The notes under the pieces are model-generated. The model saw only the letters and a list, made by a program, of their open reading frames with translations, was not told where the DNA came from and ran no database searches. From Curvibacter sp. (lineage in GTDB: Bacteria > Pseudomonadota > Gammaproteobacteria > Burkholderiales > Burkholderiaceae_C): 55,215 nucleotides of DNA. The position numbers and the translations under genes are program-made. Below are positions 19,322 to 29,090 of this stretch, piece after piece. The stretch lies in the NCBI GenBank assembly GCA_020248905.1, contig JADCGR010000044.1, positions 1-55,215 on the forward strand, given 5' to 3'. Within the stretch, counting starts at the first letter, position 1. The number at the start of each line of letters is the position of its first letter.

Positions 19322-19392
19322 TCGCCCTAGTGCCCCTGAAAATGGGGGCCAGCCGCTCACGGCTTCCCTAGAATGCGCCCAAGGGGAGACCG

Positions 19393-22167
19393 ATGACGCC
19401 AGAAGCCCGCGCCCGTCAGAACATTGATGCGCTGCTCACCGCAGCGGGTTGGCATGTGTGCGGCATGGCGGATGCCGACATCCACGCCGCCCCAGGCGTG
19501 GCCATCCGCGAGTTTCCCCTCAACACCGGCTTTGGCTTTGCCGACTATCTGCTGTACGTCAACGGCAAGGCCTGCGGCGTCATCGAGGCCAAGAAGGAGG
19601 GCGCCACCCTCACGGGCGTGGAAGTGCAGTCGGCCCGCTACGCCCAGGGCCTGCCCAACAGCTTGCCCGCCTGGGCGCGCCCACTGCCCTTTTTGTTTGA
19701 GTCCACCGGCGTAGAAACCCATTTCACCAATGGGCTCGACCCGCAGCCCCGCGCCCGCAGCGTTTTTGCCTTCTTCCGGCCCGAGCTGCTGGCCCAGTGG
19801 TTGACCTATTTGCCCGCACCGGCGGCTTCCGGTTCGGCTGTGGAAGAGCCCGGCGCCTCCACTACCTTTTTGGCCCGCCTGCAGCACATGCCCCCGCTGG
19901 TGACCGAATGGGGCGCTGGCGGCGCGAGCTACAAGCTCTGGCCCGCGCAGATCAAAGCCGTGAGCAATTTGGAAAAGAGCCTGGCCGCCAACAAGCCGCG
20001 CGCCCTGATTCAGATGGCCACCGGCAGCGGCAAGACCTTCACCAGCATCAGCTTCATCTACCGGCTCATCAAGTTTGCCGGTGCGCGGCGCGTGCTGTTT
20101 CTGGTGGACCGGGGCAACCTGGCCCGCCAGACCAAAAAAGAGTTCGACGCCTACGCCTCGCCGCACAACAACTTCAAGTTTGGTGAGGAATACATCGTCC
20201 AGCACCTGCAGGGCAACCAGCTCGACACCAGCGCCCGCGTGGTCATCTGCACCATCCAGCGCATGTTCAGCATGCTCAAGGGCCGAGAACTGGCCGAGGA
20301 CGCAGACGAAGAATCCACCGAGGGCATGGAGAGCCTGTTCAAAGACCCCCAGCCCATCCAGTACAACCCGCGCATTCCCATCGAGAGCTTCGACATCGTC
20401 GTCACCGACGAAGCCCACCGCAGCATCTACAACCTGTGGCGCCAGGTGCTGGAGTATTTCGACGCCTACCTCATCGGCCTCACCGCCACCCCCAACAAGC
20501 AAACGTTTGGCTTTTTCAACCAGAACCTGGTGATGGAATACGGCCACGCCCAGGCTGTGGCCGACGGCGTGAACGTCAACTACGACGTCTACCGCATCAA
20601 GACCGAAGTCACCGAAGCCGGGGCCAAGGTCGACAAAGGCTACTGGCTCGAAACCATGGACCGCGCCACGCGCCGCCGCGCCGCCTGGCAGCTGGACGAA
20701 GACTTTGAATACGACCCCGCCGAGCTGGACCGCGCCGTACAAACGCCCGACCAGATTCGCACCGTCGTCCGCACCCTGCGCGACCGCTGGCAGACAGACC
20801 TTTTCCCCCAGCGCGAGGAGCTGCCCAAAACCCTGGTCTTTGCCAAAGACGACAACCACGCCGAAGCCATCGTGCAGATCCTGCGCGAGGAGTTTGGCCG
20901 CGGCAACGAGTTTGCGCAGAAGATCACGTACAGAACGACGGGCACCACGCCCGAGCAGCTCATCAAAGACTTCCGCACCGCCTATTACCCGCGCGTGGCC
21001 GTCACGGTGGACATGATCGCCACCGGTACCGACATCAAGCCCGTGGAGATCGTCGTCTTCATGCGCTCGGTCAAAAGCCGCAGCTTCTTTGAGCAGATGA
21101 AGGGCCGGGGCGTGCGCGTGTGCAACCCCACGGATCTGGCCGCCGTCAACCCCGGCAACGGGGTGCGCAAAGACCACTTCGTCATCGTCGACGCCGTGGG
21201 CGTGTGCGAGCGCGACAAGACCGACAGCCGCCCCATGGACCAGAAAAAGACGGTGCCGCTGGACAAGATGCTGCAAGCCGTGGCCCTGGGCAATGTGGAG
21301 GACGAAGTGCTGAGCAGCGTGGCTGCGCGCCTGGCCCGCTTGGACAAAGACCTGGGCGAAGCCGACCATGCGAAGATTTTGGAGGCCAGCGGCGGCCACA
21401 CCCTGCAAAGCCTGGCGCGCGGCATCGTGGAAGCGCTCAACATCGACCCCACGCAAGACATGCCCCCCGCGCAGGCCGAAGAACGCCTACGCCAGGCCGC
21501 CAAACCCTTCAGCAACCCCAAACTGCGCGACCTCATCCTGCAAATGCGGCAAAAGGCCGACCTGGTGCTGGATACCGTTACACAAGACAGCTTGATTGCC
21601 GCCGGCTTCGCCGAAGGCTCTGACCGGGCCAAGGATCTGGTGCAGAGCTTCGAGGCCTTCATCCAGCAGCACAAAGACGAAATCACCGCGCTGCAAATCC
21701 TCTACAAGCGCCCCACACGCGCGCCGCTCAAGTTTGAAGACATCAAGGCCCTGGCCGATGCCCTGCACGCCCCGCCACACCTGCTGGATGAAACCGCGCT
21801 CTGGCAGGCCTACGCCGCGCTGCAAAAGGGCAGGGTCAAAGGCGCCAGCCAGCGCCGGCTGCTCACAGACCTGGTCAGCCTGGTGCGCTTTGCCATGCAG
21901 CAAGACAACGAACTGGTGCCTTACCCCGAGCGCGTGCAGGCCAACTTTAAGGCCTGGCTGGCGCAGCACGGCCAACCCTTCACCCAAGAACAACAACACT
22001 GGCTAGAAATGATCCGCGACCACATCGCCGCCAACCTCGGCATTGAAATCGACGACTTTGAGTACGCCCCCTTCAACAGCGAAGGCGGACTGGGCAAGGT
22101 GCACCAGCTGTTTGGGGCGCAGCTGCCCAAGGTGATTGAAGAGCTAAATCGGGAGTTGGCGGCGTGA
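19393..22167 (+). CDS. hsdR: Type I restriction endonuclease subunit R
   Basis: The 924-residue protein has an N-terminal PD-(D/E)xK nuclease domain (Asp51 and EAK at 65-67), then a superfamily 2 translocase with Walker A ATGSGKT near residue 210 and a DEAH box near 336, and a C-terminal EcoEI-type helical domain. It pumps and cuts DNA lacking host methylation in complex with HsdM and HsdS. All motifs are intact. The ATG at 19393 is preceded by AAGGGGAG. A possible -10 box TAGAAT lies at 19369-19374. It is the first gene of the island, and its stop overlaps the hsdS GTG start. Confidence 0.95.
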   Translation: MTPEARARQNIDALLTAAGWHVCGMADADIHAAPGVAIREFPLNTGFGFADYLLYVNGKACGVIEAKKEGATLTGVEVQSARYAQGLPNSLPAWARPLPFLFESTGVETHFTNGLDPQPRARSVFAFFRPELLAQWLTYLPAPAASGSAVEEPGASTTFLARLQHMPPLVTEWGAGGASYKLWPAQIKAVSNLEKSLAANKPRALIQMATGSGKTFTSISFIYRLIKFAGARRVLFLVDRGNLARQTKKEFDAYASPHNNFKFGEEYIVQHLQGNQLDTSARVVICTIQRMFSMLKGRELAEDADEESTEGMESLFKDPQPIQYNPRIPIESFDIVVTDEAHRSIYNLWRQVLEYFDAYLIGLTATPNKQTFGFFNQNLVMEYGHAQAVADGVNVNYDVYRIKTEVTEAGAKVDKGYWLETMDRATRRRAAWQLDEDFEYDPAELDRAVQTPDQIRTVVRTLRDRWQTDLFPQREELPKTLVFAKDDNHAEAIVQILREEFGRGNEFAQKITYRTTGTTPEQLIKDFRTAYYPRVAVTVDMIATGTDIKPVEIVVFMRSVKSRSFFEQMKGRGVRVCNPTDLAAVNPGNGVRKDHFVIVDAVGVCERDKTDSRPMDQKKTVPLDKMLQAVALGNVEDEVLSSVAARLARLDKDLGEADHAKILEASGGHTLQSLARGIVEALNIDPTQDMPPAQAEERLRQAAKPFSNPKLRDLILQMRQKADLVLDTVTQDSLIAAGFAEGSDRAKDLVQSFEAFIQQHKDEITALQILYKRPTRAPLKFEDIKALADALHAPPHLLDETALWQAYAALQKGRVKGASQRRLLTDLVSLVRFAMQQDNELVPYPERVQANFKAWLAQHGQPFTQEQQHWLEMIRDHIAANLGIEIDDFEYAPFNSEGGLGKVHQLFGAQLPKVIEELNRELAA

Positions 22168-23528
22168 GCGCGACAGAGATGCTCGAGGAGATGACGGAGG
22201 CTGTTCGCGAGCAGACGGGTTGGCGGTCTATTCCATTAGGGGAGACAGGAAAGTACATCAACGGTCTGGCGTTTAAGCCAACGGACTGGGGTGATGATGG
22301 GCTTCCGATCATCCGAATTCAGAATCTTACCGATCCGACAAAACCTCTCAATAGAACGACGCGGGCGGTTGACCCTGCTTATGTGGTGAATCCTGGAGAC
22401 ATCCTTGTCAGTTGGTCGGCGACCTTGGATGCTTTCATCTGGAATCGTGAGCCGGCCCTGCTAAATCAGCACATCTTCAAGGTCATTCCCGATACTCGGG
22501 TTGTCACAAAGAAGTTTCTTTTCTACACGCTGAAGAAGGCGATTGCAGAGATGGTGAAGTCGGAGCATTTGCACGGCTCAACCATGAAGCACATCAACCG
22601 TGGGCCATTTCTGGCACATCGTGTTGACGTTCCATCCCTAGAAATCCAAGAGGTCGTTGTCGCCGAACTCGAAAAACAGTTCTCCCGCCTCGACGAAGCC
22701 GTCGCCAACCTCCAGCGCGTCAAAGCCAACCTCAAACGCTACAAAGCCGCCGTCCTCAAAGCCGCCGTCGAAGGCCGCCTCGTCGAAACCGAAGCCGAAC
22801 TCGCCCGCCGCGAAGGGCGCAGTTACGAGACCGGCGAGCAGCTATTGCAGCGGATTCTTGAGGAGCGACGGGCGAAGTGGGCAGGTAAGGGAGAGTACAA
22901 AGTGCCGGTAGCTCCCGTTACCTCCGACCTCCCAGTGTTGCCTGAGGGGTGGGTGTGGGCCACGCTGCCGCAGCTAGGTGAGCTGAATAGAGGCAAGTCA
23001 AAGCATCGTCCGCGTGATGATGAAGCACTCTACGGCGGACCGTACCCGTTCATTCAGACAGGCGATGTGCGCCGTTCGGACGGTTCGATCACCGAATTCA
23101 CCCAGACCTATAGTGAGTTTGGTCTGGCTCAAAGTAGGCTTTGGCCAGCCGGAACCTTGTGCATCACTATTGCTGCCAATATCGCAGAGACCGGGATTCT
23201 GAAATTGGAAGCCTGCTTCCCTGACAGCATCGTTGGATTCATTCCTAGCCTTGGCTCCCCAACTGTCGAGTACGTAGAGTGCTTCATCAGAACGGCGCGT
23301 GAAGGATTAGATCGTTACGCGTCTGCGACTGCGCAGAAGAACATCAATTTGGAAGTGCTGGAGGCCGTTGCGATCCCCGTGCCGCCTTTTACTGAGCAAG
23401 TTCGCATCGTCGCCGAAGTCGACCGCCACCTGTCCATCAGCCGAGAAGTCGAAGCCGAGGTCGACACCAACCTCCAGCGCGCGCAGTCGCTGCGACAGGC
23501 GACTTTGGCCAAGGCGTTTACAGCGTAG
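22164..23528 (+). CDS. hsdS: Type I restriction-modification specificity subunit S
   Basis: The 454-residue protein has two target recognition domains (about residues 20-165 and 255-420), each followed by conserved helices (EKQFSRLDEAVANLQRVKANLKRYKAAVLKAAVEGRL and the C-terminal copy ending in LRQATLAKAF). It sets the bipartite DNA sequence recognised by the complex. The GTG start overlaps hsdR. Composition is mosaic: the conserved central helices are GC-rich like the chromosome, while both recognition domains are clearly richer in A and T, as expected if they are exchanged by recombination. Confidence 0.94.
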   Translation: MSATEMLEEMTEAVREQTGWRSIPLGETGKYINGLAFKPTDWGDDGLPIIRIQNLTDPTKPLNRTTRAVDPAYVVNPGDILVSWSATLDAFIWNREPALLNQHIFKVIPDTRVVTKKFLFYTLKKAIAEMVKSEHLHGSTMKHINRGPFLAHRVDVPSLEIQEVVVAELEKQFSRLDEAVANLQRVKANLKRYKAAVLKAAVEGRLVETEAELARREGRSYETGEQLLQRILEERRAKWAGKGEYKVPVAPVTSDLPVLPEGWVWATLPQLGELNRGKSKHRPRDDEALYGGPYPFIQTGDVRRSDGSITEFTQTYSEFGLAQSRLWPAGTLCITIAANIAETGILKLEACFPDSIVGFIPSLGSPTVEYVECFIRTAREGLDRYASATAQKNINLEVLEAVAIPVPPFTEQVRIVAEVDRHLSISREVEAEVDTNLQRAQSLRQATLAKAFTA

Positions 23529-23532
23529 TCGC

Positions 23533-24726
23533 ATGCAACATTTTCAGGATACAGAGACGGGCCAAATCCACGGATTTGACGATGGTGTAGACCCAATGAA
23601 GTTGGGCTATCGCTCAATCCCAAAGACACTTTCATCCGTCGTCAAGCAGAAGCCAAGTGAAGATCATGTTTGGCTTGATGGTGATTGGGTTCATAAGGCG
23701 GACGCTCCAGCAGGTTACGCTGCTCCGGTTTCGAGTGTTCTGTCGTATGACCCAGCTTGGCACGCCTTTTTGCAGCCATACACCTGGGTGCTGCAGGACG
23801 AGGAAGTGTTTTCGATCACTCTAGAACAGATCAACACGAACGCCTATGCGGGTGAAAGACTGGGTGAGCCGGTCTTTTCATTGGTTGAGTTTGGTATTCC
23901 CGCGCTCCTTTCGCGTGACGGTGCCATTGCTTTACCGATGCGAGATGGATTTCTCCAACAACATGCCGCTGTAGATGCGCTGAACCGGATTTTTTGTGCG
24001 CTGCTGATTGGGGGGATACATGCAGAGTTTGTTTCGCACAACGAGGCTTTGCCCGGTTGTCTTGGCGAGGATAAACGCCTGATTGTGTATACGCCGACAC
24101 AGCATGGTCGATATCGGCACATGGATGCTGCCATTTCAGAACGGATGAACCTTTTGCACCCACGTGTGATCCGGGTGGCGCAATTGCGGAGTGCACTTGG
24201 GTTTGGGTTGGCTGCGCTTTCAAATGTAAAAAACCTCTCTCCGGCGTTCTTGCTTCACGGGTACACCGCCGTGCAGCATCAGAGTGCCAGTGAAGCACTG
24301 AGTAGCCTGTGGATAGTTGTTGAGCAGGTGACATCGTTTCTGTGGGAAGAGCGAGTTCTGAAAGATTCAAACTTGAATCTTCCTGACATGAAGAAGCAAC
24401 TTAGGGACGTGGGAAAAAGCGCAGACACAGCAAAGACCGCTGTTAAGCATGAGCTGCTTTCGAGAGCCACAGTGATTTCTACGGACTGCTATTCAAGACT
24501 CAGCAGCGCACGCGATGAGCGCAATTATTTGGTGCACGAAGGTCGTGTACCGGACATGGGCGCTGTAACAGGACTTTGGCCGGCACTTTGTGAAATTCTG
24601 GAGACCGCTTCCGGTGTGTCGATGGAGCAACTCGAAAGTCTGGGGCAATGGAATCACCAGCCATCGGTACTGGTTGGAAAAGCCAACTTTGGCTGTTGGG
24701 ATGCGACTGTTAAGAATTTGGCTTGA
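23533..24726 (+). CDS. HEPN-like protein (ApeA-type motif), island gene 1
   Basis: The 397-residue protein starts at the ATG four bases after hsdS; the longer frame upstream only overlaps hsdS. No full-length family is recognised. The C-terminal third has an R-x4-H motif, R330-N-Y-L-V-H335, in ARDERNYLVHEGR, preceded by an amphipathic helix (ASEALSSLWIVVEQVTSFLWEE, given here by position 252-273). This fits HEPN ribonuclease domains of the ApeA-like kind. The first 55 residues (FQDTETGQIHGFDDGVD, later DHVWLDGDWV) resemble N-termini of phage tail-fibre assembly proteins, an inference from memory. GC is lower than in the flanking genes. An effector linked to the restriction complex is likely. 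Confidence 0.65.
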   Translation: MQHFQDTETGQIHGFDDGVDPMKLGYRSIPKTLSSVVKQKPSEDHVWLDGDWVHKADAPAGYAAPVSSVLSYDPAWHAFLQPYTWVLQDEEVFSITLEQINTNAYAGERLGEPVFSLVEFGIPALLSRDGAIALPMRDGFLQQHAAVDALNRIFCALLIGGIHAEFVSHNEALPGCLGEDKRLIVYTPTQHGRYRHMDAAISERMNLLHPRVIRVAQLRSALGFGLAALSNVKNLSPAFLLHGYTAVQHQSASEALSSLWIVVEQVTSFLWEERVLKDSNLNLPDMKKQLRDVGKSADTAKTAVKHELLSRATVISTDCYSRLSSARDERNYLVHEGRVPDMGAVTGLWPALCEILETASGVSMEQLESLGQWNHQPSVLVGKANFGCWDATVKNLA

Positions 24727-24735
24727 GGGTGTCGC

Positions 24736-25431
24736 GTGAATAGACTCAGTCCAGCCGATCAGTTGCGTAGTGCTGACAAGGCGTTGTTGCCGGACGCTAG
24801 GTCAGTGTCGACGGTAGCGCTGCGTCCTAATGGCTCGACTTCAATGGTTGCTTTGGCGGAGCGCCACGAGGACGTTGCGCAGTTCGAGTTGTTGCCGACG
24901 GTCCCTGCGGATATACGGATTCACTTTGAGACGGCGAAGAACCTGTATCTCTATGCTTGGTTTGTGTATCGGTTCTATCCGGTCGCTGAACAACAAGCGC
25001 TCATATCACTGGAATTTGGGTTGCGGGAGCGGTTAGCCATGACTTATCCCGAAAAATATGGCCCAGCATCCACGTGGATTCCTTCCCTGACAAAAATGCT
25101 TGAAACAGCTCGCAAGGATGGGCTGGTTTCAAACGCTGGGATGCGGGCGACCGAGCGATGGGCAATGCGACGAGCGCGCAATCGAGTGTCGGATGAAGCA
25201 AGTCGTCGGTTGATTGAAAGCGGAGCGGAGTTCATTGAGTTTGACCCCGATGGCGCTGTGCCTGCGCCCGGAGACTATTGCGATGATGCGCTGGGCATTT
25301 TTATAGAGACGCTGCCTGAAATTCGTAACACTTACGCGCACGGAAGCGCAATGCTCCATTCCTCAGTACTTGGAACTTTCGAAATCGTCACGGATTTGAT
25401 TAACCAGTTGTTCTCGGATTCATCCAAATGA
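24736..25431 (+). CDS. HEPN-like protein, island gene 2
   Basis: The 231-residue protein starts with GTG at 24736, 9 bp after the previous gene. It shows ALISLEFGLRERL at residues 88-100 and R197-N-T-Y-A-H202 in PEIRNTYAHGS, which together match the two-helix layout of HEPN domains with a catalytic R-x4-H. No transmembrane segments are seen. HEPN pairs usually act as RNases or as structural partners. The stop overlaps the ATG of the GIY-YIG gene (ATGA), so the genes are translationally coupled. Low GC suggests transfer. No named family was recognised beyond the motif. Confidence 0.65.
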   Translation: MNRLSPADQLRSADKALLPDARSVSTVALRPNGSTSMVALAERHEDVAQFELLPTVPADIRIHFETAKNLYLYAWFVYRFYPVAEQQALISLEFGLRERLAMTYPEKYGPASTWIPSLTKMLETARKDGLVSNAGMRATERWAMRRARNRVSDEASRRLIESGAEFIEFDPDGAVPAPGDYCDDALGIFIETLPEIRNTYAHGSAMLHSSVLGTFEIVTDLINQLFSDSSK

Positions 25432-26294
25432 TGCCTCCCTTCTCCCTCCGCATCTTCGTCGCCGACGGCGACCCTGACGGCTTGCGCATCGTCGACAAGT
25501 CCAACTGGATCGGCAAGGCGTTGGTGTTTCCGCGTGCGTTGCTGCCGCAGGTGAAGGCCCGTCCCGAGCTGGCGCAGACCGGCGTATACCTGCTGCTGGG
25601 GCCGCGCCCGGATGGGGAAGGCGACATGCTCTACGTGGGCGAGGGCGACCCCATCCGCCCCCGGCTGGAGAGCCACTATGCGCAAAAGGATTTCTGGACC
25701 CGCGCCATCGGCTTCACCACCACGACGGCCGGGCAGCTGAACAAGGCGCATGTGCAGTTTTTGGAGTCGCGCCTCATCGCCCTGGCCCGCGCCGCCAAGC
25801 GCATGCCGCTAGACAACGCCAACCAGCCCGCCGAACCGTCCCTGAGCGAGGCCGACCGTGCCGATATGGAAGTTTTTCTGGGCCACATGCTGGGCATGCT
25901 GCCGGTGCTGGGTGTGCATGCGTTTGAGCAGGCGGCCAAGGTGCAGGCGCCTATGGCACCTGTGCTGACATGCAAGGGCAAGGGGGTGGCGGCCACGGGT
26001 TACGAAGCCAGCCAGGGCTTTGTGGTCAAGGCGGGTTCGCAGGCGGTGCCTGAGGCAGTGCCGTCCATGCAGCAGCATGTGCGCGGCATGTACGATTTGC
26101 GGCAGGAGCTGATTGCGAACGGGGTATTGGCGCAGGACGCTACGGGCTACCGCTTTACTCAGGACTATCCCTTCAGCTCCCCCAGCACTGCGGCGGCGGT
26201 GGTCTTGGGGCGCAGTGCCAATGGGCGCATCGAGTGGAAAGACGCCCAAGGGCGGACGCTGAAAGAGTTGCAGGCAGCGGAGGCCAGCCAGTAG
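25428..26294 (+). CDS. GIY-YIG nuclease-like protein with C-terminal DUF4357
   Basis: The 288-residue protein carries a GIY-YIG fold at about residues 50-125: GVYLLLG (52-58), MLYVGEG (67-73), a conserved Arg near 77-79 and Glu113 in FLESRL. The C-terminal region (about 185-280, KGKGVAATGYEASQGFVV and TAAAVVLGRSANGRIEW) matches DUF4357. This pairing is common next to type I restriction loci and in stand-alone genes of unknown role. It could nick or cleave DNA, or recognise modified DNA. GC rises back to chromosomal level in this gene. Confidence 0.85.
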   Translation: MMPPFSLRIFVADGDPDGLRIVDKSNWIGKALVFPRALLPQVKARPELAQTGVYLLLGPRPDGEGDMLYVGEGDPIRPRLESHYAQKDFWTRAIGFTTTTAGQLNKAHVQFLESRLIALARAAKRMPLDNANQPAEPSLSEADRADMEVFLGHMLGMLPVLGVHAFEQAAKVQAPMAPVLTCKGKGVAATGYEASQGFVVKAGSQAVPEAVPSMQQHVRGMYDLRQELIANGVLAQDATGYRFTQDYPFSSPSTAAAVVLGRSANGRIEWKDAQGRTLKELQAAEASQ

Positions 26295-26349
26295 TCGCAC
26301 ACGCAATAGAGAACGGGCTGCTGCCCGATCTGAAGAAGGGGGGAGCGGC

Positions 26350-27234
26350 ATGAAAGAACTACACGTCCTGGTGGATTTCGAGAACGTTCAGCCGTCGCTG
26401 GCGGAGCTGGCCGAGCGGGCCCCCGGTTTCACTGATGTCTGGCTGTTCCATGGCCCGCACCAGGAGAAGCAAGCTCAGCAACTGGCGGCGGCGCATGCGC
26501 GGTTGACGCCCGTGCCGCGCTCGGGCAAGGGCCCGAATGCGCTGGACTTCCACCTTTCTTTTTACCTGGGTTACGTGTTGGCCAAGCATCCAGACGCGCA
26601 GCTGATAGTCATTGCCAATGACCAGGGCTACGACCCCATGATCGAGCACGCGGCCGAGGTGCTGGGCTTCCACGTGAAGCGCGTGGGCTTCAGGAACGGC
26701 AAGGCGCCTGCGGCCAAGAAGGCTGTTGCGGCCAAGACGCCTAAGGCGGCGCAGCCCGCTCCGGCCAAGAGGGCGTCGGCAAAGGCCGTCGCGCCTGCCA
26801 AGAAGGTACCTACCGAGAAGGCCGCTGCAAAGAAGGCGCCAGCGAAGAAGGTGCCAGCGCAAAAGACCCCGGCGAAGAAAGCAGCGGTGAAAACTGCGGC
26901 CGCCAAACAGGCCACGCCGCCAGCACCGGCCAAGAAAGTGGCTACCAAGACGGCGCCGGCGAAGAAGAAGCCTGCGGCCCAAGCTAAGGCACCCGCCAAA
27001 AAGGTCACACACAGCGCAAGCCCGGCCAGCCATGATGCCAAGGAGTTCGAGCGCATCAAAAAAGGGCTGGCAAAGATGGGTGACAAGCGGCCGCAGAAGC
27101 TCAAGCCTTTCCTGCGCCATCTGGAGTCCATGCTCGGGCAGGCCAGTAGCTCGGCGGCGCTGGACGCGTTGGTCAAGAAGCTGGAGCAGCAGAACGTGGC
27201 GCACGTCGAGGGCGATCGAGTGCGGTATAGCTGA
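26350..27234 (+). CDS. PIN/NYN-like domain protein with histone-H1-like Lys/Ala/Pro linker
   Basis: The 294-residue protein has three parts. Residues 1-115 look like a PIN/NYN-type nuclease domain, with acidic residues Asp9 and Glu11 (VDFENV), Asp66 (NALDFHL) and Asp91 (NDQGYDPM). Residues 118-226 are a low-complexity chain of AKK, APAKK and PAKK units like histone H1 or bacterial nucleoid proteins. Residues 230-294 form a small C-terminal domain. The middle should bind nucleic acid by charge. Similar PIN-like proteins occur in Burkholderiales outside restriction loci, so island membership is not certain; the 126 bp to hsdM leaves room for a separate promoter. Confidence 0.8.
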   Translation: MKELHVLVDFENVQPSLAELAERAPGFTDVWLFHGPHQEKQAQQLAAAHARLTPVPRSGKGPNALDFHLSFYLGYVLAKHPDAQLIVIANDQGYDPMIEHAAEVLGFHVKRVGFRNGKAPAAKKAVAAKTPKAAQPAPAKRASAKAVAPAKKVPTEKAAAKKAPAKKVPAQKTPAKKAAVKTAAAKQATPPAPAKKVATKTAPAKKKPAAQAKAPAKKVTHSASPASHDAKEFERIKKGLAKMGDKRPQKLKPFLRHLESMLGQASSSAALDALVKKLEQQNVAHVEGDRVRYS

Positions 27235-27360
27235 ACCAGTATGGCTCAAAGTGCTGGAGGCACAGGCATGGTGAGTAGCGGGTGCCTATGGTGGGCTTGC
27301 GACAATAGAGCTAGTTATTCTCCTGAATGAGGCCACAAGCGCCTCACTGAACTGGTCTTC

Positions 27361-28899
27361 ATGAACACATCTACCCTTGTCCAGAAGCTCTGGAACTACT
27401 GCAACGTGCTGCGCGACGACGGCATGAGCTATGGCGACTATGTGGAGCAGCTCACCTACCTGCTGTTCCTCAAGATGGCCGATGAGCGCGCGCAGCCACC
27501 CTACAACCAGACCAGCATCGTGCCCGGTGCCTACTCTTGGCCGTCGTTGCTGGCCAAAGACGGTGACGAGCTGTTTGACCACTACCGCCATGTGCTGGAG
27601 GCCCTGGGGCAGCAGAAGGGCACGCTGGGCCTGATCTTCGGCAAGGCGCAAAACAAGTTTCAAGACCCGGCCAAGTTGCGCCGCGTGATCGTGGATCTGA
27701 TCGACGCCGAGACCTGGACCATCCTGGGCGCCGACGTGAAGGGCGATGCGTATGAGGGCTTGCTGGAAAAGAACGCGCAAGACACCAAGAGCGGCGCGGG
27801 GCAGTATTTCACACCGCGTGCGCTGATCCAGGCCATGGTGGATGTCATTGCTCCGCAGCCGGGTGAGCGCATTGCAGACCCGGCCTGTGGCACCGGTGGC
27901 TTTCTGTTTGCCGCGCATAACTACATGGTGGCGCACAACAAGAACCTCACGCGCGATCAGCTCAAGCACCTGAAGGAAAAAGCTTTCACCGGTTACGAGC
28001 TGGTGCAGGCCACGGCGCGGGTATGCGCCATGAACCTGCTGCTGCACGGCATTGGCTCCGAAAAGTCGGTGCCGGTGGTGGTGGGCGACGCGCTGGGGGC
28101 GGACCCTGGCGAGCGCTATGAAGTGGTGCTGGCTAACCCGCCCTTTGGCAAGAAAAGCAGCACTGTGATTGTGGGCGAAGACGGCCGCAGCAGTACCGAG
28201 AAAGACACCATCGAGCGCGATGATTTCTGGGCCACCACCAGCAACAAGCAGCTCAACTTTGTGCAGCACATCAAGACCCTGCTTGCCACCCACGGCCGCG
28301 CGGCGGTGGTGCTGCCGGACAACGTGCTGTTCGAGGGTGGGGCGGGCGAAACCATCCGCCGCAAATTGCTGCACGAGTGTGACGTGCATACGCTGCTGCG
28401 CCTGCCCACCGGTTTGTTCTATGCCCAGGGCGTGAAGGCCAATGTGCTGTTCTTCGACAAAAAGCCGGCCAGCGAAACGCCCTGGACCAAGCAGCTCTGG
28501 ATTTACGACCTCCGAACCAACAAGCACTTCACGCTCAAGACCAACCCGCTGCGGCGCGAGGATCTGGATGAGTTTGTTGATCTGTACTGCGTGGGCCAGC
28601 GTCAAAAGCGCAAACCGACCTGGAGCGCCGAGAACCCGGAAGGGCGCTGGCGCGTGTATAGCAATGACGAGCTGGTGGCACGCGACAAAGCCAGCTTAGA
28701 TATCTTCTGGCTCAAGGACGAATCACTGGCCGACAGCGACAACCTGCCGCCGCCCGATGTGATTGCCCAGGAGATTGTGGAAGACCTGCAGGCCGCGCTG
28801 GAACAGTTCCGATTGATTGCGGCGGATCTGGGGGCGGATGGGGAAGCCGCAGGTGGTGAGAGCGGCGTTGGCAGGCTGGCTGTCTCGCTAATGAGCTGA
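27361..28899 (+). CDS. hsdM: Type I restriction-modification DNA methyltransferase subunit M
   Basis: The 512-residue N6-adenine methyltransferase has the HsdM N-terminal helical domain, AdoMet motif I DPACGTGGF (173-181) and catalytic motif IV NPPF (259-262). With HsdS it protects host DNA and is required for restriction. It is encoded four genes downstream of hsdS, although hsdM normally precedes hsdS directly. It may have its own promoter in the 126-bp gap after the PIN-like gene. All motifs are intact, so the locus is probably functional. Confidence 0.95.
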   Translation: MNTSTLVQKLWNYCNVLRDDGMSYGDYVEQLTYLLFLKMADERAQPPYNQTSIVPGAYSWPSLLAKDGDELFDHYRHVLEALGQQKGTLGLIFGKAQNKFQDPAKLRRVIVDLIDAETWTILGADVKGDAYEGLLEKNAQDTKSGAGQYFTPRALIQAMVDVIAPQPGERIADPACGTGGFLFAAHNYMVAHNKNLTRDQLKHLKEKAFTGYELVQATARVCAMNLLLHGIGSEKSVPVVVGDALGADPGERYEVVLANPPFGKKSSTVIVGEDGRSSTEKDTIERDDFWATTSNKQLNFVQHIKTLLATHGRAAVVLPDNVLFEGGAGETIRRKLLHECDVHTLLRLPTGLFYAQGVKANVLFFDKKPASETPWTKQLWIYDLRTNKHFTLKTNPLRREDLDEFVDLYCVGQRQKRKPTWSAENPEGRWRVYSNDELVARDKASLDIFWLKDESLADSDNLPPPDVIAQEIVEDLQAALEQFRLIAADLGADGEAAGGESGVGRLAVSLMS

Positions 28900-29090
28900 T
28901 TCGTTTGGCGACCCTCAGCCACACTCGATAGCGTTACGTGCCTTTTGGGGCACATCACAAGTGTTCGATACCGGCCAAACGCTACAAGGCCTCGAGCTCC
29001 TTTTGGGCCTCAGCGCGCCTTGTACTCGCCAACGAAAGGTAGCAGGTTCCGGCAGGCAGCGTCGCTGAACAGGGCGCCCGGTGAGGTCAA
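28900..29090. other. Convergent gap between hsdM and tolA
   Basis: A short hairpin, GTGCC-ttttgg-GGCAC, at 28938-28953 could end hsdM transcription, though no T run follows. On the minus strand, directly after the tolA stop codon, the same frame stays open for 26 codons (29013-29090) and ends with TGA; it reads as a plausible protein end (FSDAACRNLLPFVGEYKAR). It may be a remnant of a gene cut off when the island arrived, or chance. Confidence 0.4.

Follow-up and report, generated by a model that had tools for sequence, protein, structure and literature searches.

What are four extra genes doing between the specificity gene hsdS and the methyltransferase gene hsdM of a type I restriction-modification (R-M) locus, and do they belong together? 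The question is raised by a 55,215-nucleotide stretch of the Curvibacter sp. contig JADCGR010000044.1 (hereafter the window), in which seven genes are read on a single strand (+) in the order hsdR-hsdS-orfA-orfB-orfC-orfD-hsdM, without an internal stop in any of them. An original prediction, made from the letters of the DNA, had proposed that the four inserted genes form one nucleic-acid-processing cassette with two HEPN genes. The reading that we favour, with a probability of about 0.62, is a different one: the locus would belong to a clade of hsdR-hsdS-[cargo]-hsdM systems with an exchangeable slot for defence or toxin-antitoxin genes, and the window would combine an older layer, orfC and probably orfD, and two recently arrived, single-gene HEPN-like effectors, orfA and orfB.

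The hsdS-hsdM interval is an occupied, fast-changing slot

Relatives of the window's hsdM were collected from 36 of 200 genomes of the same family (37 places, expectation values (E) to 1e-100) and 30 of 300 genomes of the same order (26 further places, E to 1e-150). Sixty-one of these 63 places were scored; one (L090; L and G numbers are our handles for loci and genomes) was inspected separately, and the hsdM of G471, which begins 276 bp from the end of its contig, was left out. hsdS lay upstream of hsdM in 44 of the 61 loci, and in all 44 the two genes were separated by 951-7089 bp (median 2218.5). Some of these gaps are slightly too small, since each was taken to end at the mechanical hsdM start, and a few of those starts lie too early by 24-47 codons. 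The hsdR-hsdS junction measured at most 14 bp in 36 of 43 measurable loci. Eight more distant loci, which form a sister clade (hsdM 44-45%), had the order R-M-S, S overlapping M by 4 bp. The other nine loci remained unscored; with L090 they make ten, of which seven had members of known cargo families in the 9 kb before hsdM and three were undecided. A tree built from 58 hsdM proteins had a single branch, with 100/100 support, between the eight R-M-S rows and the other 50, among which the unscored loci are counted; a long-branch warning (L163, L111) may distort joins in this tree. The window's family and order thus contain an R-M clade with a built-in, exchangeable S-M slot that was never found closed in the 44 scored loci.

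Slot contents change quickly. Of 52 locus pairs whose hsdM identity reached 85% or more, only 11 had any slot content in common. When 23 close loci were aligned, DNA conservation ended at the start codon of hsdM: no upstream position was conserved throughout the set, and only a few pairs, such as L110/L228, were alike in that region. The interval holds variable open reading frames (ORFs), as does mlo-type cargo: the slots yielded 86 same-strand cargo ORFs with a minimum length of 120 aa, which fell into 50 BLAST families. The ORF picker favoured the same strand, and some slot ORFs (e.g. in L151 and L153) may be wrong-frame; the window's orfA is outside the 86, its mechanical ORF overlapping hsdS and an antisense frame having been picked instead. 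Among the first 25 of 38 Pfam families, those most frequent in these cargo proteins were SLFN_AlbA_2 (8), HATPase_c_4 (8), Fic (6), YhcG/DUF1016 (3), AbiEi (3), AbiEii (3) and PIN (3). Among the first 25 of 184 PADLOC models the most frequent were weak Aga_SIR2 matches (7), then SoFic (6), PDC-S04 (6), PDC-M32A (5), PDC-M21B (4), PDC-S24 (4) and PDC-S02 (3), and Mrr, GmrSD_N, HipA_2 and SMODS were also found in slots. The L223 slot is filled by an 870-aa ORF, missed in the first ORF listing because the mechanical hsdM start was too early there.

The slot might instead be a neutral parking place in which cargo is transient and largely non-functional. Such a view would accommodate the broken orfC copies in the slots of G141 and G040, the two slots (L233 and L154) that have no same-strand ORF of at least 120 aa, and the spread of 86 ORFs over 50 families. 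We nevertheless consider it unlikely: closed slots numbered 0 of 44, catalytic-type residues were intact in all four window genes, and many cargo proteins matched defence or toxin-antitoxin models, a share that has no random-gene baseline.

As a separate observation, loci L220 and L221 (genomes G434 and G464) have hsdM proteins 97% identical and entirely different slot contents, one slot carrying a SMODS nucleotidyltransferase gene and the other a DEAD-type helicase gene and AbiEi/AbiEii relatives.

orfA is very likely, and orfB probably, a HEPN protein

The orfA protein consists of an N-terminal alpha/beta portion, to which no function was assigned, and a C-terminal HEPN-like domain at residues ~237-360 with the motif R330-N331-x3-H335 (RNYLVH). 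R330, N331 and H335 were invariant in 13 of 13 sequences, an alignment that leaves out the fragment L126. Aligned with hhalign, the orfA profile matched a DUF4145 set at 82.7% with the motif in register, and control profiles (Fic, AlbA and hsdM) reached at most 0.6%; the DUF4145 set held 13 rows, 14 of 18 match rows having been extracted and the off-frame row L264 dropped. DUF4145 is placed in the HEPN clan, and HHpred probabilities of 75-98% are typical among HEPN families (PMC3710099). In Pfam, single orfA members reached DUF4145 only at E 0.071, and orfA had no family match in Pfam, NCBIfam or PADLOC.

The AlphaFold model of orfA (predicted local distance difference test, pLDDT, 81.6) had an alpha/beta arrangement in its N-terminal part and, C-terminally, a bundle with helices at 252-275, 300-311, 317-336 and 342-360, the motif lying near the end of the third. 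When this model was compared with the PDB using Foldseek, the 13 rows after the best-E row comprised 10 MntA-HepT type toxin-antitoxin entries, whose matched chains we take to be the HEPN ones, and three of a Sulfolobus protein. The entry 2hsb, titled HEPN, ranked 18; the best probability was 0.99 and the template modelling score by target 0.64. Foldseek against BFVD returned nothing meaningful, a scan of viral_contigs using the orfA sequence alone was unproductive, and sequence searches of the PDB gave one chance-level match each for orfA and orfB and none for orfC or orfD. From sequence and model together, we judge it very likely that orfA is a HEPN protein.

In orfB the motif reads R197-N198-x2-A201-H202 (RNTYAH). 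R197, N198, A201 and H202 were invariant in 12 of 12 sequences, which also shared an upstream E-x3-[RK] element (E93 invariant, R or K at 97). orfB had no family match in Pfam, NCBIfam or PADLOC apart from one meaningless sub-threshold viral hit; below threshold, its homologues reached HEPN_Apea (0.035) and HEPN_Swt1 (0.037) in Pfam, one homologue each. The orfB profile matched DUF4145 at 55%, aligned outside the motif region. A scan of genome_contigs with the single orfB sequence produced 91 pattern hits and no relatives, and PF18739 scanned in 90 genomes gave no match, the controls likewise giving none. The case for orfB is mainly its conserved motif, which makes a HEPN assignment probable, with less assurance than for orfA.

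Both R-x4-H pairs that had been pointed out at the outset, R330/H335 and R197/H202, are present. The presence of an R-x4-H motif was rejected as evidence when taken alone: relaxed to R-[N,D,H,E,K,Q]-x3-H, the pattern matched 17 times in 15 of the 86 cargo proteins, orfB among them. The motif counts despite this frequency because it is invariant among the homologues of orfA and of orfB.

Relatives of orfA were found in 1 of 250 family genomes, namely the window itself, and elsewhere at nine loci in genome_contigs, in two plasmid records and in four viral contigs; the closest named relative is from Rhodoferax (66%). One viral-contig locus (L255) has the same surroundings as the Azospirillum plasmid match. 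Two others (L252 and L253) are on viral-classed contigs, a umuC-like polymerase gene adjoining in L253, a context that suggests prophage carriage of orfA relatives. Relatives of orfB, the window included, were found in 7 of 250 family genomes and 8 of 300 order genomes, and further in one truncated plasmid copy and three viral contigs. The orfB homologue of G133 lies in a multi-layer defence cluster (L012, 7947-17174) made up, on one strand, of a divergent hsdM, an S-like gene, an AAA_5 gene, McrBC, the orfB homologue and DUF4747. G309 contains two orfB homologue copies (L241 and L242); the same two genes, of 280 aa and 342 aa, adjoin each copy, an arrangement suggestive of a mobile unit that was duplicated.

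orfC and orfD are putative nucleases

The assignment of orfC as a GIY-YIG/DUF4357 protein was borne out. Its C-terminal DUF4357 was recognised by Pfam at 1.9e-24, and the protein matched the PADLOC candidate PDC-S14 at 2.2e-104 over residues 2-286, i.e. at full length. Pfam gave no GIY-YIG hit in orfC; the residues Y54, Y69, G71, R79, H83, E113 and N130 were present in 14 of 14 full-length sequences and G52 in 93%, and we take GxY...YxG, R, H/Y, E and N to be the GIY-YIG catalytic set. orfD had been described as a PIN/NYN-like protein with a nucleic-acid-binding linker. The first part stood, with a Pfam PIN7 match over cut-off (2.9e-25), D66 and D91 in 22 of 22 sequences, D9 in 95% and N12 in at least 91%; the Ala/Lys-rich linker resembles bacterial histone-H1-like proteins below curated cut-offs. 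No meaningful PADLOC match was obtained for orfD (best 0.13).

The four genes probably have different histories

The GC content at third codon positions (GC3) was 0.84 in hsdR, 0.64 in hsdS, 0.51 in orfA, 0.55 in orfB, 0.83 in orfC, 0.78 in orfD and 0.80 in hsdM, so that the dip in GC and GC3 was confined to hsdS-orfA-orfB. By composition, orfA and orfB look like recent, low-GC newcomers that arrived with or after a foreign-looking hsdS.

The distribution of the genes also separated them. Occurrence in a slot or beside an R-M stub was recorded in five genomes for orfC, in two for orfD and in the window only for orfA and orfB. Of 200 family genomes, 22 carried orfC; hsd-like genes were present in the fetched stretch in 9 of these 22, the window included, although the distant hsdM-like neighbours in G164, G128 and G122 (25-28%) may be other methyltransferases. 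In five of the 22 (the window, G141, G040, G025 and G088) the hsd genes were of the window's R-M family. G025 retains an hsdR stub (residues 1-69) and a C-terminal hsdS stub (382-453), followed 0.6 kb on by an intact orfC (88%), and in G088 an hsdM stub follows orfC. orfD occurred in 27 of 200 genomes and lay in an hsd locus at 2 of 22 places examined (6 of 28 match places fell outside this neighbour count), the window and G042, whose slot holds a relative at 73%. orfC therefore looks like an older occupant of the slot, and orfD probably belongs to the same layer. The division into an older orfC (and orfD) layer and recent orfA and orfB was drawn from the stubs and slot copies, the base composition and the linkage counts taken together.

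Linkage was scored by BLAST to the window's hsd proteins (E 1e-4 to 1e-6, which very divergent hsd genes could escape) within at most ~10 kb per side, 5 kb in viral contigs and less at contig ends; the orfB places in G503 and G336, which are short stretches, were left out. None of the 15 other orfA loci, and one of the 16 other orfB loci (G133), had hsd genes nearby. Over the same loci, no orfB relative lay beside orfA, no orfA relative lay beside orfB, and no gene family recurred next to either; the few families common to two or three loci were at varying distances or came from the same genome or stretch. Elsewhere, orfA and orfB are mostly lone genes. The original prediction had called for a neighbourhood survey and treated homologues unlinked to hsd genes as evidence against it. 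Homologues proved unlinked for orfA (0/15), nearly so for orfB (1/16) and largely so for orfD (2/22), and linkage was retained for orfC (9/22).

These data bear on three alternatives. If orfA to orfD were one co-adapted cassette, a single multi-nuclease system as originally proposed, the shared strand, the three tight junctions and the 4-bp overlap of orfB with orfC would be expected. The base composition of orfA and orfB is however unlike that of orfC and orfD, orfC occurs without orfA or orfB in G141, G040, G025 and G088, orfD occurs without the other three in G042, and neither orfA nor orfB has a recurrent neighbour. A four-gene single cassette was rejected on these grounds, and we regard it as very improbable.

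A narrower proposal is that orfA and orfB form a pair, either a HEPN heterodimer or an effector with its inhibitor, acquired as one unit. HEPN RNases usually act as dimers, and the two genes are adjacent, 9 bp apart and similarly low in GC3. The absence of each gene from all other loci of its neighbour speaks against such a pair, which we consider improbable.

Equally improbable, in our view, is a PrrC-like guard, in which orfA and/or orfB would be silenced by the HsdR-M-S complex and freed to cut RNA when a phage inhibitor blocks restriction. The candidate HEPN-like domain does lie in a type I operon, 4 bp past hsdS, and PrrC itself sits within a type Ic operon, where EcoprrI keeps it silent (PMC3710099, PMC3874165, PMC2610378). 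PrrC orthologues, however, are described as invariably type Ic-linked (PMC2610378), and the homologues of orfA and orfB are mostly without a nearby hsd gene, so they cannot generally require an hsd partner in cis. No ATPase family was detected in orfA or orfB using Pfam, NCBIfam or PADLOC. An obligate partnership of the PrrC type was rejected by the linkage counts.

A proposed two-layer mechanism and its weak points

According to the exchangeable-slot reading, the R-M enzyme would cut unmodified invader DNA as a first layer. orfA, and probably orfB, are predicted to be latent, metal-independent RNases that would cleave tRNA or mRNA once infection is detected by a sensing part of their own, in orfA the N-terminal part; their action would stop the growth of the phage or of the cell as a second, abortive layer, to which orfC and orfD may add DNA or RNA cleavage. 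Since orfA and orfB are solitary elsewhere, they probably carry their own trigger, which makes a PrrC-type dependence on the R-M enzyme less likely. The layered DNA and RNA defence suggested at first would still be the likeliest use of the locus.

We infer that the cargo is co-transcribed with hsdM, because hsdM sits beyond the cargo and no upstream sequence is conserved across relatives. The hsdM start was placed in 27 loci, and in 15 of them the last same-strand cargo ORF overlapped hsdM or ended within 30 bp of it; a cargo-family ORF overlaps the hsdM start by 4 bp in L106, L219 and L090. A promoter and terminator scan gave results at chance level.

Several observations weigh against this interpretation. 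At the level of expression, the last same-strand ORF ended more than 150 bp before hsdM in 7 of the 27 placed loci, one of which is the misplaced window row (1066 bp, orfD having been dropped; the true gap is 126 bp). The 126-bp gap between orfD and hsdM could hold a promoter. Of the 60 ORFs that reach 150 aa within 2.5 kb before hsdM, 11 were on the opposite strand; these, and the slots without a same-strand ORF mentioned above, detract from a uniform picture of the slots. For orfA, the profile did not match Swt1 (0.3%) or orfB (2.0%), the unrelated Pfam families CCB2_CCB4 and Forkhead scored a better E than DUF4145 with single members, the best-E Foldseek row was the unrelated SecDF (0.17), and the matches to HEPN-type structures were weak (E of at least 0.18). 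Elsewhere orfA lies near housekeeping or prophage-type genes, a context with little bearing on the question of defence. The orfB profile scored higher with the AlbA control (13.6%) than with Swt1 (7.7%), and the orfB model, built from four input sequences only, was poor (pLDDT 58.5) and found no structural match in Foldseek. The idea of two HEPN genes was accordingly upheld for orfA by motif, profile and model, and for orfB the fold was not shown by the model.

A bolder version of the exchangeable slot, which we put forward tentatively and hold to be doubtful, is that the S-M interval is a selectively maintained cargo bay. The protecting methyltransferase gene, hsdM, lies last, beyond the cargo, and the R-M system would for this reason force captured defence genes to stay transcribed: if the bay were interrupted by any insertion, terminator or frameshift, the cell would be left short of protection from its own HsdR. 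Blocks of hsdS plus cargo would be exchanged by recombination between the conserved hsdR and hsdM, and the window would be a capture in progress, in which two new single-gene HEPN RNase families joined an older nuclease layer. If the exchangeable-slot reading is right, the S-M gap of the clade would be a ready trap for unknown defence genes, most genomes with the system providing one to several candidates at a fixed place. It also poses the question of why the cargo precedes hsdM and whether expression through the cargo is what retains it.

Organisation of the locus and further observations

The coordinates (Table 1), common direction and open frames of the locus were confirmed from the sequence. 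The R, M and S subunits were all present and intact according to Pfam, PADLOC and their open frames. hsdR and hsdS overlap by 4 bp; the following junctions measure +4 bp (hsdS/orfA), +9 (orfA/orfB), -4 (orfB/orfC), +55 (orfC/orfD) and +126 (orfD/hsdM), so that three junctions in the insert overlap or are under 10 bp, as had been noticed before.

Table 1. Features of the type I locus and its cargo, in window coordinates
Feature	Coordinates	Strand	Description	Matches
hsdR	19393..22167	+	type I restriction subunit, 924 aa	Pfam EcoEI_R_C, ResIII, HSDR_N; PADLOC REase_I
hsdS	22164..23528	+	specificity subunit, GTG start, 454 aa	Pfam Methylase_S; PADLOC Specificity_I 3.5e-100
hsdS-hsdM cargo slot	23529..27360	+	3832 bp, from hsdS end to hsdM start	
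orfA	23533..24726	+	397 aa counted from ATG; mechanical ORF begins further upstream	
orfB	24736..25431	+	GTG start, 231 aa, HEPN-like	
orfC	25428..26294	+	288 aa, GIY-YIG-type nuclease, C-terminal DUF4357	
orfD	26350..27234	+	294 aa, PIN7/NYN-like domain (~1-115) and Ala/Lys-rich histone-H1-like linker	
hsdM	27361..28899	+	adenine methyltransferase subunit, 512 aa	Pfam N6_Mtase 1.3e-69, HsdM_N; PADLOC MTase_I 1.3e-199
Inserted R-M island, approximate extent	19322..29090	.	alpha/beta-hydrolase gene on one side, tolA on the other	

In all likelihood the whole R-M locus was inserted into the genome of the window, because the genes that flank the island are neighbours in G229, a genome of the same genus, in which the hydrolase gene and tolA adjoin with 66 bp separating the aligned ends. 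An empty site was seen in this one of three same-genus stretches; G145 has other DNA between the flanks, and the hydrolase gene was not found in the G014 stretch.

Some further features of the clade were recorded. In 7 of the 43 measurable loci (L109, L120, L152 and L226-L229) hsdR and hsdS are 445-3901 bp apart, an arrangement like Campylobacter rlo; a second hsdS-like gene accounts for part of this distance in L229. A cargo protein of 307-386 aa recurs in five loci, among them L107 (4274-5197), L218 (10610-11533) and L111 (10132-11055), and its L107 copy had no Pfam match. In L111, L218 and L248 a PIN-like-looking gene of 134-138 aa stands behind it, and the two genes are possibly a new toxin-antitoxin-like pair. 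The slot of G117 contains a D12-class adenine methyltransferase gene (L105, 10324-11259) beside two SLFN-AlbA genes.

Comparison with known systems

That defence genes can be embedded in type I loci is already known. The rlo and mlo genes of C. jejuni were reportedly described by Miller et al. in 2005, and a 2024 preprint by Payne et al. is said to present embedded defence candidates, the PADLOC PDC series. In C. jejuni type I loci, the intervening ORFs are named rlo between hsdR and hsdS and mlo between hsdS and hsdM (PMC5183652, PMC2610378, PMC4619093). As in the window's clade, differing ORFs sit inside type I loci, those described including RloC nucleases and the GmrS-like RloF. Here, by contrast, most R-S junctions are closed, the cargo is found mainly between S and M, the hosts are other bacteria and the orfA and orfB families are unannotated. 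The PDC candidates derive from 'guilt by embedding' (PMC10855318, PMC12988326); orfC strongly matches PDC-S14 and relatives' cargo matches PDC models and SoFic, whereas orfA, orfB and orfD have no meaningful match in the series.

PrrC with EcoprrI, and RloC, likewise place an RNA-cleaving HEPN-type effector, a role only predicted for orfA and orfB, in or near a type I locus. RloC is rarely R-M-linked (8/73; PMC2610378). Unlike these proteins, orfA and orfB have no detectable fused ABC ATPase, and unlike PrrC they lack a consistent type I linkage. The toxin-antitoxin genes of DarTG2 are found inside an E. coli type I R-M island, the RRDM island, which is phage-protective (PMC12255303). They too are embedded in a type I operon; they differ in sitting between hsdS and hsdR, in having a dedicated repressor and in a toxin that is not HEPN. 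This toxin is a DNA ADP-ribosyltransferase.

ApeA is among the HEPN families for which embedding in R-M operons has been tabulated (PMC3710099). The DUF4145-like, ApeA and Swt1/Abi2 families share with orfA and orfB the R-x4-6-H motif with a polar residue after R, and several are listed in or beside R-M operons. orfA and orfB differ from these families in passing no Pfam HEPN threshold, and orfA in having its own N-terminal part. The literature searched, whose coverage of subscription papers and preprints was thin, contained no account of an hsdS-hsdM slot that is always filled in this clade. As far as this search extends, two features set the window's locus apart from the systems above: two unnamed, tandem HEPN-like families, and a measured S-M slot that is never closed and changes fast, compared with relatives of R-M-S order.

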